In this document: one piece after another, positions 16,174-54,815 of the stretch
Layout: every line of letters starts with the position of its first letter
Numbering within the stretch: the stretch's first letter is position 1
Assembly (NCBI RefSeq): GCF_914768025.1
Contig: NZ_CAJZCE010000005.1
Coordinates: 1-64,000, forward strand
Length of the DNA: 64,000 nt
Direction: 5' to 3'
Source: Snodgrassella gandavensis
Lineage (GTDB): Bacteria > Pseudomonadota > Gammaproteobacteria > Burkholderiales > Neisseriaceae
Translations under genes and position numbers: made by a program
The notes under the pieces: model-generated
Told to the model about the DNA's origin: nothing
Databases searched by the model: none
The model's input: only the letters and a program-made list of their open reading frames with translations

Positions 16174-16830
16174 TTACCTTGCTTGCTCTAGATTATTAAA
16201 AAGATATAAATCCAGTACCTCAGTACGATACCAACGATTAAATTGTTTAATATAGCCATTTTGATATGAGCTGCCTGGTTGAATATAATCTATGGTTATA
16301 CCATGTGACTTTGCCCAGTTAGTAAACGTATTTCCAGTGAATTCCGTTCCATTATCTACTCGTATTTTTAGTGGATAACCATGATATTCGGCCAGTTTAT
16401 CCAGATAACGGGTAATCCTGCCAGCCGGCAAGCTGACTGCAATATCAATGCCTAGTGCCTCACGATTAAAGTCATCTATCACATTGAAAGTTCTAAAGCG
16501 CCGTTGATTGCGACTGCTGTCACTCATGAAATCCATTGACCAGCATTCACCTTGTTTATTGGGGACTGATAGCCTTTCCGGGCTTCGTGGAGGAATGCGG
16601 TGTTTACGCTTTACCCTAAGATTAAGCTTTAATTCACAATACACCCGGTAAACACGTTTATGATTCCATTTATAGCCAAGCTTTCTGATGCGATGAAAAC
16701 ACTTGGGAAAGCCCCAGCGTAAATGCTTATCGGTAATAGCATTTAGTACAGACATAATCACTGAATCATCCGGTAACTTGGGTTGATAATAGTAAGCGCA
16801 GCGGCTTAAGCCAATAATTGCGCAGCTCAT
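16174..16830 (-). pseudogene. IS3-type transposase OrfB, inactivated
   Basis: This frame carries an HTH_21-like start and an rve integrase core with WSMDFMSD and RVDNGTEF, the first two acidic residues of the DDE triad. The third is lost: the expected NGYIE motif reads NGYIKQFN, Glu to Lys. The frame stops early (NLEQAR). Its natural C-terminus (VTEEWLTIYNSERPHEALNN) continues in another frame to about 16079. A further frame break near 16850 separates it from the frameshift zone after orfA. It should not transpose by itself. Confidence 0.85.
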
Positions 16831-42180: not shown

Positions 42181-43008
42181 ATGGCATTTAAAAATTTATA
42201 TCAATTATTAAGCCTGAAGCCTACTGCCTCGCATTCGGATATCATTAATGCAATGAAAAAAGCGGCACAGCAACAGACTATTTCTTTAGAGAACTTAAAG
42301 CTATGTAAACAGGTTCTGCTTAATGAAGAGTTACGTAAGAAATACAACTCGCGTTTGTTTATTGCGTATCCAGAACTTTTAGAAATTCCGCCCAAGCCAA
42401 AAGAACCTGAGAAAGTTAAGCCATTACCACCTAAAAAAACAGGCCGCAATAAAAAAAAGCTTTATCTAATTCTTGCCATCATTGTGGCAATGATAATTTC
42501 CGGTACTATTGCTTACTCTAAATATAACTCTCTTGCCTCAGAAGCAAAAGAAGCAGTAAGAAAAATATTACTCCGACCTGAATCAGCGACATTCTATGAT
42601 ATTAGAATACATTTCAATACCAATAACAAAAAGATATATGTTTGCGGAAAAGTAGTTGCAAAAGTACTTGACGGTTACTATAGCGGAAAAGAAACGTTTG
42701 TGTATGCTCCGCATATTAAACAAGCTGTTGTAGTTCATAAAAAGAAGCCTTGGTTTTTACAAGATGAACTTAAGTCCAGCATAGCATATAAAATAGGCTG
42801 CTTAAATGATGACCCTGCTAAATTAGGGAAGCAACTATCCCTATTTATGGATCATGCACATGAATATGGCGCTCTGAAATGGCTAGAATTTTCAGCCTCC
42901 AATAAAGTCGAGCAAGCTAAATTAGATAAGAGGTTAGTTGAACTGAAAACAATAGTAGAAGCGGAACTACAAGCGATCTCGATTTATGAACAGAGTGATA
43001 AAGAATGA
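42181..43008 (+). CDS. J-domain-like membrane protein without HPD motif
   Basis: This 275-aa protein starts with a J-domain-like helix pattern (NLYQLLSLKPTASHSDIINA ... LLNEELRKKYNSRL) that lacks HPD, so it is unlikely to stimulate Hsp70. A Pro/Lys linker, one membrane segment (LYLILAIIVAMIISGTIAYS) and an outer domain (PESATFYDIRI...VCGKVVAK) follow. The outer domain resembles small secreted beta domains with VCG. It is an accessory gene lying between the prophage relics and the tRNA, on the opposite strand to the lysis genes. Function unknown. Confidence 0.65.
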   Translation: MAFKNLYQLLSLKPTASHSDIINAMKKAAQQQTISLENLKLCKQVLLNEELRKKYNSRLFIAYPELLEIPPKPKEPEKVKPLPPKKTGRNKKKLYLILAIIVAMIISGTIAYSKYNSLASEAKEAVRKILLRPESATFYDIRIHFNTNNKKIYVCGKVVAKVLDGYYSGKETFVYAPHIKQAVVVHKKKPWFLQDELKSSIAYKIGCLNDDPAKLGKQLSLFMDHAHEYGALKWLEFSASNKVEQAKLDKRLVELKTIVEAELQAISIYEQSDKE

Positions 43009-43132: not shown

Positions 43133-43208
<76 letters not shown>

Positions 43209-47239: not shown

Positions 47240-48031
47240 ATGACCCAGCTCACCCTTACTGTACTTGGCTGTGGCAGCTCTTCTGGCACACCAGTTATCG
47301 GGTGTGATTGCCCCACCTGTACCAGCAACGACCCGAAAAATCGGCGCACTCGTTGCAGTGCCCATATACAGATTGGTGAGCAACACTGGCAAATTGACAC
47401 CGGCACCGATTTTTATCATCAGACATTACAGCACAAACTGCCACGCATTGACGGCATACTCTATACCCATCCCCACGCCGACCACCTTAATGGCATCGAT
47501 GACTTGCGCACATTCTGCTATAAACAACAAGCAGCCATTCCCATTTACGGCCATCATGATACGCTGGCCAATATTTGCAGCCGTTTCGATTATGCCTTTC
47601 TGGAACAGAACAATTACTGGAACCGGCCAGTACTTCGTGCACATGAACTGCCACTGAATCAGGGGCAAAATAGCGTTCTCAACATTGACGGCGTACCTAT
47701 ATGGCAATTCGGCGTACCACACGGTAGCTGGACAACCAGCGCCTTTCGCATCGGCAATATCGCCTGGTTTACCGACCTTAATCACATCGAAGAATCCATA
47801 TTCCCGCATTTACATGGATTAGATTACCTGTTTCTGGATTGCCTGATGGACACCACCTACCCCAGCCACCTCAGCACCGAACAGGCCTTTGCCTACGCGA
47901 AGCGCATCAATGCTAGACAAACCTACTTTATCCATATGACCCATGCGCAGGAATACTCCAGTCTGAAACAGCGCTGTCCCAAAAACTGTGCTCCTGCCTA
48001 TGATGGATTAATCGTACATAGCAGTTATTAG
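47240..48031 (+). CDS. PhnP-like metallo-beta-lactamase-fold hydrolase
   Basis: This 263-aa protein begins with LTVLGCGSSSGTPVIGCDCP, including the Cys-rich zinc loop of PhnP-like enzymes, and shows the HxHxDH motif THPHADHLNGIDD. It probably is a phosphodiesterase; substrate unknown. It closes the mltG operon. Confidence 0.88.
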   Translation: MTQLTLTVLGCGSSSGTPVIGCDCPTCTSNDPKNRRTRCSAHIQIGEQHWQIDTGTDFYHQTLQHKLPRIDGILYTHPHADHLNGIDDLRTFCYKQQAAIPIYGHHDTLANICSRFDYAFLEQNNYWNRPVLRAHELPLNQGQNSVLNIDGVPIWQFGVPHGSWTTSAFRIGNIAWFTDLNHIEESIFPHLHGLDYLFLDCLMDTTYPSHLSTEQAFAYAKRINARQTYFIHMTHAQEYSSLKQRCPKNCAPAYDGLIVHSSY

Positions 48032-48588
48032 CAATATTTAGTAAAAATCACCACAATCCTAATAAAAACAGCATAAAAATTAAATATTAAAAATATGTAG
48101 TTAAAGCCTACAATCTTAAAATGACAAGATTTAGTTACATCACCAATTCAGCATTGCACCTGCTGACAGCACTACAAGGCATCCTGTACATTTATGTCTG
48201 CCAGCATAAATTACATTAGTAATAACTATCTGGTAACATTCATTAAAATAAATCAGCTTAACTGGCTTTCAACAATCCAAAACATCAGCTCATCCAGACA
48301 AATTCTGAATAAAATATTATCTGCATTGTCAAAAAGACTTTTTTGCTGTGAAATTAATAAATTCAGTCAAATAAAAGATGTGATAAGTATTAAATTTGTT
48401 AAATATATACAACAAATTTTCAAATATTATAATTATTTATATATTAAATACAATTAATTAAATATTTAGCTTTATTTAATTGATATCTAAAATATATTTA
48501 TCTTAAAATTTAAAATATTATGTTATATGTCTATTATTTAGATAATATTTGTAAGATTGTATCCGTTATTCTATTTGGGAGATGAAAA
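48032..48588. other. AT-rich spacer
   Basis: This spacer separates the housekeeping operon from the next pair. An 87-aa frame (48194-48457) is present but its composition is that of AT-rich spacer DNA and I do not call it. Composition becomes sharply more AT-rich here, which suggests an islet boundary. Confidence 0.5.
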
Positions 48589-49665
48589 TTGTTTGGTACA
48601 AATTTTTCTTTTGAAGGTTTAATGATTGAACGCATTATTGCTCATCGCGTATACGCAAAAAATGCAGATAAAACTATTAATCAACCGAAAATAAGCACTA
48701 AGCTTATTGAGTTAGATGCAAAAGCACAAAATTCTTTGGAAAGTCGTTTGACAAAAGCATTAGGGAACAAATCACATGGTATAGAAATGTCAATTACACA
48801 AACTAATGAAGGCAGTTTTTTCTATACGGCAACACAAATCATGTTCGATTCTGATAGTGAATTTATTACTAAGACAGCTACATTTGCTAATAGTTTAACA
48901 AAAGCACAATCCACTACCAATGCTCCAGGCGGAGTTTTGATTGTTGCGCAAGGGCGAGTAGGGAGTGATTCTAAACGTTTTCTAGCAGTTATAAAAGCTG
49001 AACCCCAAGATGGCTTCGAAACATCAGAGAATAATGATTTTATATCAATGAATTATATTGATGAATTATTAATGACAGATGCTAACCGATTATACAAAAT
49101 TGGTTTTTTGGTAGAAGAAATCAATCGACCAAAAACAGAAATTAATGTTGCTAATTTTCGTGCCTTTTTATTCGATCACTTAATGACAAGTTTAGAAGCA
49201 AGAAAAGCAGCAAGCTATTTTTATCAAAATTTTCTGGATATGAGTATTGCAGAATCTTCAAAAAAACTAACACAAGATTTTTTTTATTTAACACGGAATT
49301 TTATCGATTCTTCTGGAATGACAGATGAAGAAAAATTAGATGCCCATGAAGCACTACGTGTGACTTTAAAAAATAAGGATGCAACATTAAGCGTTAATGA
49401 TTTTGCACAAAAACATTTATCAATGCAATTTCAAAATCAATATGAAATTTTTATGGAAAAAAAGGACTTTCCATTAAACTCAATAACTAAAGATATTGAA
49501 TATATTGAAAAGAAACTAAAAACCCGTCGTAAATATTGCTTCAACAATGATGTAATCATTTTAACACCATCTAATAAAACTGAAGAATACTTATCCTTTA
49601 ATTTTTCTGAAGATAAGATGTATACTTTAGTAACCATTAAAGGTTTGTTGCAAAGACAGGAATGA
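48589..49665 (+). CDS. 37-kDa nucleoid-associated-type protein (NA37/YejK family)
   Basis: This 358-aa protein (TTG start, GGGAG eight bases upstream; ATG at 48622 is an alternative) has the NA37 start (IERIIAHRVYAKNADKTINQ) and APGGVLIVAQGRVGSDSKRF. YejK-family proteins bind DNA on the nucleoid, and members are frequent in mobile and defence islands. It overlaps the RelA/SpoT-type gene by 4 nt, so the two work together. The pair is AT-rich against both neighbours, a sign of transfer. Its role as sensor or antitoxin is a guess. Confidence 0.75.
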   Translation: MFGTNFSFEGLMIERIIAHRVYAKNADKTINQPKISTKLIELDAKAQNSLESRLTKALGNKSHGIEMSITQTNEGSFFYTATQIMFDSDSEFITKTATFANSLTKAQSTTNAPGGVLIVAQGRVGSDSKRFLAVIKAEPQDGFETSENNDFISMNYIDELLMTDANRLYKIGFLVEEINRPKTEINVANFRAFLFDHLMTSLEARKAASYFYQNFLDMSIAESSKKLTQDFFYLTRNFIDSSGMTDEEKLDAHEALRVTLKNKDATLSVNDFAQKHLSMQFQNQYEIFMEKKDFPLNSITKDIEYIEKKLKTRRKYCFNNDVIILTPSNKTEEYLSFNFSEDKMYTLVTIKGLLQRQE

Positions 49666-50672
49666 ATGAATTTCAGGAATTCAAAAATTATCTTCAACAA
49701 AACGAAAATATTTTTCGTGCTTGGGGAGAATTTGTAGCAGAAAAAATTCAGAAAGAATTACATCTGCAAATATCTCCTTTAAAAATTCATGAATTTTTAA
49801 AGATTGAAGCTAAGCCAAGAGTTAAAGATATTAATTCTGCACTTGTCAAAATAGGCAGAAAAAATTATACGAATCCGTCAAAAGAGATGACAGACTTAGT
49901 GGGTGTTCGTTTTGTCGTATTAATTGCAGAACAAATTAATATGATAAGTAATATTATTGAAAATGAAACTGAATGGGATGCATTACTTTCCAAAGATTTT
50001 GAAAAAGATAAATTAGAGAATCCTAATGTATTTGATTATCAATCTAAACACTATGAAGTTCGCCCTAAGAACCCTATCACAGTCAAGTTCGAGGGAGAAA
50101 AAATCATTATCCCTCAGGAGATATGCTGTGAAGTACAAGTACGTTCATTACTGCAACATGCATATGCAGAATTGGTTCATGATAATCTCTATAAATCAAA
50201 AGGAAGTGTACCTAATAAAGCCAAAAGAGAAGTTGCTAAAAGCATGGCTTTAATGGAAACTACGGATGATTTATTTAATCAAACATTAAAAATTTTACAT
50301 CAGCATAATGAACCAATAGAATGTTTATATGAAAAGTTATCAAAATTTTATATAGATAACATTAGTGGTGAATCTAATTTTGATAGAAAAACTAACTTAA
50401 TTATTTTAGCAGATTTTTCAGATTTAATCGAAAGTGATACTGATACTATAGAAAAAATTAGAGATTTATTTAATACAAAAACATATATAAAAAACAAAAT
50501 TACATCACGAGTTAAAGATTATTATTTGTTTCAACAGCCGATCATTTTATTTATTTATTGGGTAGTTTCAACTAATCATGCTAGAATAACGATCAACAAT
50601 TGGCCTTTACCAGCTTACCAAAGAGAATTGAATTATATATTCACAGATTTAGATAAAGGATCAATTCTTTAA
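49662..50672 (+). CDS. RelA/SpoT-domain nucleotide synthetase, candidate toxSAS
   Basis: This 336-aa protein keeps the synthetase motifs KPRVKDINS, DLVGVRFVVL, YQSKHYEVR and EVQVRSLLQHAYAELVHD (the ExQxR...H...E..H signature). There is no HD hydrolase domain and no TGS/ACT part, so it is a stand-alone synthetase. Such enzymes make (p)ppGpp or ppApp, or pyrophosphorylate tRNA as in toxSAS and CapRel systems. It overlaps the NA37 gene by 4 nt. A defence or toxin role is an inference from the pairing and composition. Confidence 0.75.
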   Translation: MNEFQEFKNYLQQNENIFRAWGEFVAEKIQKELHLQISPLKIHEFLKIEAKPRVKDINSALVKIGRKNYTNPSKEMTDLVGVRFVVLIAEQINMISNIIENETEWDALLSKDFEKDKLENPNVFDYQSKHYEVRPKNPITVKFEGEKIIIPQEICCEVQVRSLLQHAYAELVHDNLYKSKGSVPNKAKREVAKSMALMETTDDLFNQTLKILHQHNEPIECLYEKLSKFYIDNISGESNFDRKTNLIILADFSDLIESDTDTIEKIRDLFNTKTYIKNKITSRVKDYYLFQQPIILFIYWVVSTNHARITINNWPLPAYQRELNYIFTDLDKGSIL

Positions 50673-50771: not shown

Positions 50772-51581
50772 TTAAAATGATTTTGTTATTTGTTGCATGA
50801 AATTCTGCAACACTTCTGCACTCATCCCCAGCGCGCGTACACATAAGACACAATCAGCAGCCTGTGTAATGCCCCATAGATACTGATTATTTTCCAGCGG
50901 CCAGTCGGGCAATAATGCGGCATATATCTGATCAATCAGTTGCTGTATCTGTGCTTTGCTGGCTGCGGTGTTGATGTAGTAAAGACAGGCCTGATGAGTA
51001 TACTGTTCCATCTGTCCCAATACATTAAGGGGCTGTTGCTGTGGCTGCCAGTAGATATTGTCGCTAAGCAGCGGTTGTTGCTGATAATCGATATTAATCC
51101 GTGATGACAGATAGCAAAAATCCCAGCATTCCTGATTGAGCACACGGCCACAGGCAATGATTTCGCCCAAAATTAGTTGACAGTTATCAGCCAGACTAAT
51201 CTGCATGCTTTGGGTTAAGGCAGCGTTGCGGTGCAACACCAGTGGATGAGGCAGATAACACAGCCGGCTGTGTTCATGCAGCACAATACGCGTATGCTGC
51301 TGCGCTTCATTTTCGGCAGGCATGGATTGTACTCGGGTGAATGCCTGCGTAAATAAATACAACTGGGTTTGTTGTGCCAGCTCAATTTCGATATCTATCC
51401 GGTCGCCAGCTAATAAACCCGGTGATGAACTCATCTGGATGGCCGGTAGTGCCTGCGGCCATACCGGTGCAGCCATCTGCACTAAAGGGAGGATTTTTAG
51501 TGGCGGTGTGTAATAGCAGCTGGCAAATGTGGTCTGCCCGCGCTGGTTTAACTGAGTGGTAAGATGTAAACGGCTGTGCAT
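50772..51581 (-). CDS. ureD: Urease accessory protein UreD
   Basis: This 269-aa protein has the UreD/UreH pattern: RGQTTFASCYYTPPLKI, SPGLLAGDRIDIEIEL and GRVLNQECWDF. It forms the UreDFG complex that loads nickel into apo-urease. It is the last gene of the operon, although in many species ureD is first. It starts at the ureG stop. Confidence 0.9.
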   Translation of the reverse strand: MHSRLHLTTQLNQRGQTTFASCYYTPPLKILPLVQMAAPVWPQALPAIQMSSSPGLLAGDRIDIEIELAQQTQLYLFTQAFTRVQSMPAENEAQQHTRIVLHEHSRLCYLPHPLVLHRNAALTQSMQISLADNCQLILGEIIACGRVLNQECWDFCYLSSRINIDYQQQPLLSDNIYWQPQQQPLNVLGQMEQYTHQACLYYINTAASKAQIQQLIDQIYAALLPDWPLENNQYLWGITQAADCVLCVRALGMSAEVLQNFMQQITKSF

Positions 51582-53752: not shown

Positions 53753-54268
53753 TCAATGGTGATGATGGTCAACTAAATCATGTGTATGACGGTGGCCACC
53801 GCCAACACCCGGCGCTGAATTGGCACGCAATTGTTCACTTAAGCGCCGTTGCTGGCGTACTGGTGCAAAACCAGCCACCTGCAACCATTCAAATAAGGGT
53901 TTATCAAAAGGTAGCAGCAATTCATTTCCGTCCAGAAATAGTGGTGTGTGCTTGTTACCAATTTCATAACAGGCACGCGCCATTTCCGGCAAGGTTTGCG
54001 GCGTCAGCACCATCACTTCACTTGGTTCAATCTGCACCACAACTACCAACTGCTTATCCAGATAAACTACATCATCATGGTGCAGGCGCTGCCCCTCTTT
54101 CAACAGACGAAAAGCAATCTCACGCCCGTCTGTTGTCGTCGTACGGATAATGCGCCGGTCTGCTTCAAACCATTGCAGACTAACAGTATCCAGCTTCTGA
54201 GTGGTAATCTGCTGCTTTTCTTTAAGCGTTTGCAGATTGCCGAGGATGGTTTGGATGATTAGATTCAT
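53753..54268 (-). CDS. ureE: Urease accessory nickel chaperone UreE
   Basis: The 171-aa form starting at ATG 54268 is preferred over the TTG at 54283. The protein has the UreE N-terminal fold (RRIIRTTTTDGREIAFRLLK) and a His-rich tail (GHRHTHDLVDHHHH) that binds nickel. Its start overlaps the end of the inserted membrane gene by 47 nt. Confidence 0.9.
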   Translation of the reverse strand: MNLIIQTILGNLQTLKEKQQITTQKLDTVSLQWFEADRRIIRTTTTDGREIAFRLLKEGQRLHHDDVVYLDKQLVVVVQIEPSEVMVLTPQTLPEMARACYEIGNKHTPLFLDGNELLLPFDKPLFEWLQVAGFAPVRQQRRLSEQLRANSAPGVGGGHRHTHDLVDHHHH

Positions 54269-54815
54269 TTTTGGTTTTAGCAACTTGAATAAAATATTTT
54301 AAAAGGCAAACACAGATAATAAATAACCAACCAAATTCACCTAGTATAAAAAACATCCCTTTAAATACTTCCAATTTAAAATCTTCATGGGATGGATTAA
54401 TTAATAGCCAGAGAATCATATCTATGATTAGGGATGTACCTAGAGCGAAATATCCAAATACAATAGCTACTGTACGTTGTGTAATGCGACTATCAACATA
54501 AAAATACCAGTCAGCAAAATTTCTTTTACTGCGTAACCGCAGATAACATACCGAAATAATAAACCAGATGAATGCTGATATAATAATGTACTTAAATGAA
54601 TTTATACCTTGGCTAGCAATATGCCATCTTTCGAAAAACAAATCCGAATCACTAAAAAAATGTACGCCATCTTTGGTTTGCTCAAATGAATTTGAAACAA
54701 AAAATCCCGTTGTTAAAATACTTGACAGCAGTAACATACTTTTTAATTCATCAATGACTAGAAAAATAAAATCTTTGATACATTTGATATATTTCATATA
54801 TATATATGCAAGCAT
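54222..54815 (-). CDS. Membrane protein inside the urease operon, unknown
   Basis: This protein of about 197 aa has four hydrophobic segments (SMLLLSSILTTGFFVS; YIIISAFIWFIISVCYLRL; IVFGYFALGTSLIIDMILWL; ILGEFGWLFIICVCLL). It is much more AT-rich than its neighbours and is placed between ureC (12 nt) and ureE (47 nt overlap). It is not a known urease part. It may be a recent insertion whose end happens to read into ureE. Two start ATGs (54815, 54797) flank a TA run. Function unknown. Confidence 0.6.
   Translation of the reverse strand: MLAYIYMKYIKCIKDFIFLVIDELKSMLLLSSILTTGFFVSNSFEQTKDGVHFFSDSDLFFERWHIASQGINSFKYIIISAFIWFIISVCYLRLRSKRNFADWYFYVDSRITQRTVAIVFGYFALGTSLIIDMILWLLINPSHEDFKLEVFKGMFFILGEFGWLFIICVCLLKYFIQVAKTKNESNHPNHPRQSANA

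Follow-up and report, generated by a model that had tools for sequence, protein, structure and literature searches.

The window, the whole 64,000-nucleotide stretch of DNA analysed here, comes from a bacterium of the same family as Neisseria with a genome of 2.5 Mb and carries, on its forward strand, two overlapping genes in an islet of 29% GC, compared with about 49% in the flanking genes. The first gene (48589-49665, +) encodes a 358-aa protein of the NA37/YejK subfamily, a proposed DNA-associated sensor or regulator, and begins with a TTG codon, which is also the start codon of its orthologue in G073, a genome of the same genus. A putative Shine-Dalgarno-like element read from the sequence, GGGAGA (48577-48582, +), places its GGGAG about 6 nt before this start. 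The second gene (49662-50672, +) codes for a single-domain RelA/SpoT-type synthetase of 336 aa, whose ATG at 49662 overlaps the TGA stop codon of the NA37 gene (49663-49665) in a 4-nt ATGA (49662-49665, +), a translational-coupling layout with an AGGA just upstream within the NA37 gene. A start codon at this same -3 position is found in most of 77 measured homologous pairs.

On the left, the islet is bounded by the gene of an MBL-fold hydrolase (47240-48031, +), which is the last gene of a housekeeping operon and is present in 13 of 14 genomes of the genus, and on the right by the convergent ureD (50772-51581, -); both lie outside the system. The original prediction had described two genes with a 4-nt overlap in an AT-rich islet between a housekeeping operon and urease genes, and the reading frames, the ATGA, the base composition and the two flanks agree with it. 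The AT-rich region upstream of the NA37 gene (48032-48588, +) is presumed to hold the promoter, and promoter-like matches within it are no more frequent than in shuffled sequences. An 87-aa open reading frame in this region (48194-48457) was considered as a third component and rejected; it has no significant Pfam match and is probably not a gene. Beyond ureD, inside the urease operon and between a ureE-like gene and ureC, an open reading frame of about 30% GC (54222-54815) encodes a putative membrane protein of 197 aa with no Pfam match.

The product of the first gene matches the Pfam family NA37 (PF04245, 2e-12, 47.6 bits against a cut-off of 24.6) and phrog_1974 (1e-52). An AlphaFold2 model built from aligned homologues (pLDDT 89.1) has a single significant match in the PDB, E. 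coli YejK (9be2, E 7e-9, TM about 0.5). By its domain match and its modelled YejK fold, the protein is a member of the NA37/YejK family, and the host genome contains no second NA37 gene. A structural relationship with other defence proteins such as KwaB was considered and rejected, YejK being the only hit of the PDB fold search.

The product of the second gene matches Pfam RelA_SpoT (PF04607, 2.5e-15, 57.2 bits against a cut-off of 27) and no other Pfam domain, and it is covered over its full length by phrog_32462 (2e-101). Its model, also built from aligned homologues (pLDDT 94.7), predicts N-terminal helices, a SYNTH domain at about residues 45-182 and an all-helical C-terminal domain at about 185-330; these last ~150 residues or so are helical at high model confidence and less conserved. 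The RelQ-type catalytic residues R53, K55, K63, D78, R83, E157 and H173 are invariant in 69 of 69 homologues, and the G-loop tyrosine Y126 is kept in 68 of the 69. In the profile alignment, R53, K55, K63, D78, R83, Y126 and E157 correspond to R46, K48, K56, D72, R77, Y116 and E139 of RelQ. The active site is intact: the protein combines a score above the family cut-off, the Mg-binding D78 and E157, the G-loop tyrosine and the lack of a hydrolase (HD) domain, as in a small synthetase. Here too the expectations of the original prediction held, since it had proposed an NA37-type protein beside a RelA/SpoT-type synthetase with its motifs kept and without a hydrolase. The host genome encodes two further long RelA/SpoT-type proteins, in reading frames of 787 and 849 aa.

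The best fold matches of the synthetase are RelQ and RelP (RelQ 5dec, E 5e-10, TM about 0.8 over the target), followed more weakly by CapRel (4.9e-5) and FaRel2 (1.8e-4). Sequence profiles likewise rank RelQ/RelP first, with CapRel far behind. The protein shares with RelQ (SAS1) and RelP (SAS2) the SYNTH fold and all the catalytic positions, but differs from them by its extra N-terminal helices, its helical C-terminal domain of about 150 residues and an identity of only ~17%; and whereas RelQ/RelP are stand-alone and stably carried, the synthetase described here is accessory and has a fixed NA37 partner.

An alignment of the synthetase (A1) was scanned against 85,462 species genomes, and 80 loci were kept of 101 confirmed. 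The same NA37 subfamily lies directly upstream of the synthetase in 79 of the 80, and at the remaining locus the contig starts about 100 nt before the synthetase gene. Since the queries in A1 all derive from paired loci, both profiles were also used in a separate search of 369 genomes of the class, which found the NA37 subfamily in three genomes, with the synthetase adjacent in all three, plus one extra synthetase match, partial and distant, without NA37 (G126). Gene trees built for 63 pairs agree closely, with a mirror-tree correlation of r = 0.92 where permutations reached 0.19 at most; of 30 synthetase splits with strong support, 26 recur in the NA37 tree. Isolates that carry the pair belong to the Alpha-, Beta- and Gammaproteobacteria, Desulfoferrobacter and Longimonas, while metagenome-assembled genomes, whose assignments are less certain, are labelled Planctomycetota, Verrucomicrobiota, Coriobacteriia and Thermacetogenium. 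The pairing, the mirrored trees and the spread of hosts together indicate that the pair moves as a unit: the two genes are inherited and transferred jointly and almost certainly form one unit. They also dispose of the notion that two unrelated genes became neighbours by chance, to which we give practically no credence.

The wider synthetase family does not depend on this partner. A Vibrio inovirus (10N.261.45.F7_PE002A; locus L096, 6571-7581) carries a solo RelA/SpoT-type gene, homologous in the catalytic domain and without NA37; because this gene and the G126 match are distant relatives lacking NA37, the partner is not obligatory outside the group of paired loci. The solo phage-borne RelA/SpoT proteins as a whole (that of the Vibrio inovirus, PDC-S33 and phrog_9640) are homologous in the catalytic domain and match only partially; the PADLOC candidate PDC-S33, for example, gives a partial match to the synthetase alone (3.3e-11).

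Within the family, a match is found in 5 of 83 genomes, one of the five being broken and one a remnant. In the Neisseria gonorrhoeae strains examined, the reading frame of the synthetase is disrupted, and other genera have intact copies. In the genus of the host, G073 carries an intact pair adjoining ureD and G071 a synthetase remnant. The closest relative, G075, shares 96% identity with the window over the ureD side. Of the NA37 gene it retains only the beginning, after which its sequence jumps to the ureD end; AAAATG is present at both end points, and the junction is, on this sequence evidence, a deletion scar. Three genomes of sister species (G068, G079 and G080) have a 369-aa gene in the slot beside ureD (L128 1618-2727, L129 1553-2662, L130 1690-2799), and the copy of G080 (L129) is recognised by a model of type II restriction enzymes (8e-15) and by no Pfam family. 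The scar, the remnant and the alternative gene therefore mark the pair as an accessory unit that has been lost more than once, from a site that can also hold a different gene of defence type. Within the genus, where the presence of the pair is patchy, we reject membership of the core genome, which would have told against the original prediction. Relative to ureD, the operon with the MBL-fold gene at its end runs the opposite way from that of the window in L131 and L132 (G072 and G073), as if the DNA around the insertion site had been inverted.

Elsewhere, the pair is often found in mobile or defence-rich surroundings. In E. coli SCU-102 a tRNA-Thr gene is followed by an integrase, a SLATT gene, NA37, the synthetase and PsyrA/PsyrT (PADLOC, 7e-170 and 0), and in E. 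coli BEC1 the pair lies at the same tRNA-Thr in an island with relaxase genes. In E. coli L725 it lies between ogr and gene D of a P2-like prophage. G047, a relative of the same family, has it beside an endolysin gene in a prophage that, on our reading of the open reading frames, contains Mu-like genes; other copies are on plasmids, in Ochrobactrum and in Klebsiella. For some pairs the neighbouring genes are ordinary chromosomal ones. The original prediction could have failed had the two genes not occurred together in other genomes; they do so in 79 of 80 loci, and the pair is also seen within prophages and adjoining known defence systems.

To compare these surroundings with a background, we took the four genes flanking each pair in 30 genomes and, as controls, four genes from a remote position on that contig. 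Counting PADLOC families rather than proteins at E 1e-20, on the output of a simple, crude gene caller, there were 143 families in the flanks of the pairs versus 6 in the controls. Matches in the flanks include type I restriction, PsyrTA, SngC, HmaA, MzaA and a type II methylase, and those of the controls are chiefly mad3 and RtcR-like regulators. Phage integrases gave four matches in the flanks, and this family is absent among the 25 listed for the controls. The idea that the pair is common in isolated phage genomes was rejected: tblastn found there no match to NA37 and only four distant matches to the synthetase, and viral contigs scanned with the window protein gave no relative. From this near-absence it follows that the pair is mostly carried by prophages, plasmids and chromosomes.

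A minority of loci have a further gene. Of 72 testable loci, 10 have a two-TM DUF4231/SLATT gene directly upstream of the pair; eight of these 10 are in the tree, where they make up a single clade. Klebsiella and two E. coli strains likewise have a SLATT gene in this upstream position. In Methylomonas (L014), which falls in another clade that is closer to the window, a SLATT gene lies 50 nt downstream of the synthetase. SLATT and other small two-TM neighbours together occur at 13 loci, against 7 of 328 control genes, in about five independent events. In three further lineages small two-TM proteins are encoded directly downstream of the synthetase (L035 2128-2589, L080 9014-9748, L050 9056-9325), with no convincing Pfam match and, in one case, a 4-nt overlap. 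The window itself has the two core genes only, and since SLATT is missing there and from most other loci, it is not a general effector. Burroughs et al. are said to have predicted in 2015 that SLATT proteins are pore-type effectors of nucleotide-signalled systems, and it is mainly because of the SLATT link that we consider a signalling role for the product of the synthetase.

No system catalogued in PADLOC-DB 2.0.0 matches both genes, and our literature search returned no paper joining NA37 or YejK with RelA/SpoT or toxSAS. The closest precedent is a system with a YejK nucleoid-associated domain reported by DefensePredictor to protect E. coli MG1655 against phage (PMC13092281). It has the YejK/NA37 domain in common with our pair; its partner gene is not named in the main text of that report, and its operon may correspond to the present pair. 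The claim of a new layout in the original prediction is weakened accordingly, a YejK-domain system having already been validated against phage in E. coli. With CBASS/SMODS-type signalling the pair has in common a presumed nucleotide-making enzyme and, at some loci, its association with a SLATT protein of two TM segments; here, however, a RelA/SpoT fold takes the place of the cGAS/DncV-like cyclase, and SLATT is absent from most loci.

Together with the validated YejK-domain system of DefensePredictor, the genomic context argues that the pair is probably a defence unit. As to mechanism, we favour an abortive-infection type of defence in which a DNA-associated sensor controls an alarmone-type synthetase, to which we give a probability of about one half. 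The NA37 protein would be bound to DNA or, like YejK, to the machinery of DNA topology, and would either keep the synthetase inactive or recruit it. Invading or replicating phage DNA would alter the nucleoid and release the synthetase, which would then transfer pyrophosphate from ATP to a nucleotide, yielding (p)ppGpp or (p)ppApp-like alarmones that could arrest growth before the phage spreads. The minority lineages would have gained, in the two-TM SLATT protein, a membrane effector that would probably respond to this nucleotide. Both the similarity of fold and the SLATT link lead us to lean towards nucleotide alarmones as the product, with tRNA modification a substantial if somewhat less favoured candidate.

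The original prediction spoke of a new layout of toxSAS-type defence, with a DNA-binding sensor and an alarmone or tRNA-modifying effector. One rival to our reading is a true toxSAS toxin-antitoxin pair, in which the synthetase would pyrophosphorylate the 3'-CCA ends of tRNA and NA37 would neutralise it by direct binding. The toxSAS enzymes (CapRel, FaRel2/ATfaRel2, PhRel2) likewise have a SYNTH domain without a hydrolase, in a two-component or fused layout, and are linked to phage defence (PMC9712102, PMC11559606), that of CapRel acting through the G-loop tyrosine (PMC9712102). The coupled two-gene layout, the intact ATP-pyrophosphotransferase site, the fold matches to CapRel and FaRel2 and the conserved adjacent partner, NA37 at 79 of 80 loci, would all fit such a pair. 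Yet fold and profile favour RelQ/RelP, so that the catalytic domain is nearer to these alarmone-making enzymes than to the tRNA-modifying CapRel and FaRel2, whose fold match is weaker; and the all-helical C-terminal domain of the model has nothing of the fused pseudo-zinc-finger antitoxin domain of CapRel. To our knowledge, moreover, NA37 resembles no known toxSAS antitoxin. The toxSAS label is thus not established, and we consider it unlikely, at perhaps half the weight of our preferred reading.

Carriage on plasmids and prophages would also suit a maintenance or regulation module, in which the alarmone and the nucleoid protein tune host growth, or the replication or transfer of the carrier, rather than defend the cell. 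There is a parallel in the YejK-family protein NdpA2, which relieves MvaT silencing of the transfer genes of the ICE PAPI-1 (PMC8565334). But many copies, among them those of the window and G073, are chromosomal with no attached element, and the flanks are rich in unrelated defence systems; we regard such a module as quite improbable. The likeness to the housekeeping RelQ/RelP could further suggest an ordinary stress-response synthetase with a nucleoid regulator serving normal physiology, a role at odds with the patchy distribution in the family, with the RelA/SpoT-type proteins that the host already has and with the jumps of the pair between phyla, and which we hold to be very improbable.

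A further reading, which we put forward as a speculation with the odds against it, is a second-messenger immunity built on a RelA/SpoT-type enzyme. A YejK-fold DNA sensor would switch on the synthetase and the product would serve as the infection signal, causing growth arrest directly in the two-gene form and opening a SLATT membrane channel in the three-gene form, by a logic like that of CBASS with an alarmone replacing the cyclic nucleotide. Alarmone synthetases in defence are known mainly as CapRel and related tRNA-modifying toxins. A nucleoid protein as a second, unrelated type of partner, constant over many lineages and in some joined by a SLATT membrane effector, would mean that immunity has drawn on alarmone chemistry on more than one occasion, perhaps as a signal besides a toxin, and the poorly understood YejK/NA37 proteins would gain a testable role as sensors of the state of DNA.

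Two other regions of the window were observed in passing. At its left end (96-23834) lies an array of RHS/YD-repeat polymorphic toxin genes. Two of its proteins are full-length (1400 and 1454 aa); after them come C-terminal tips that have been displaced, small candidate immunity genes in repeated copies and a fragment of a transposase (16174-16830). Closer to the pair, an AT-rich stretch beside a tRNA-Ala gene (43133-43208) encodes a 275-aa protein (42181-43008) with a weakly DnaJ-like N-terminus and a membrane segment.
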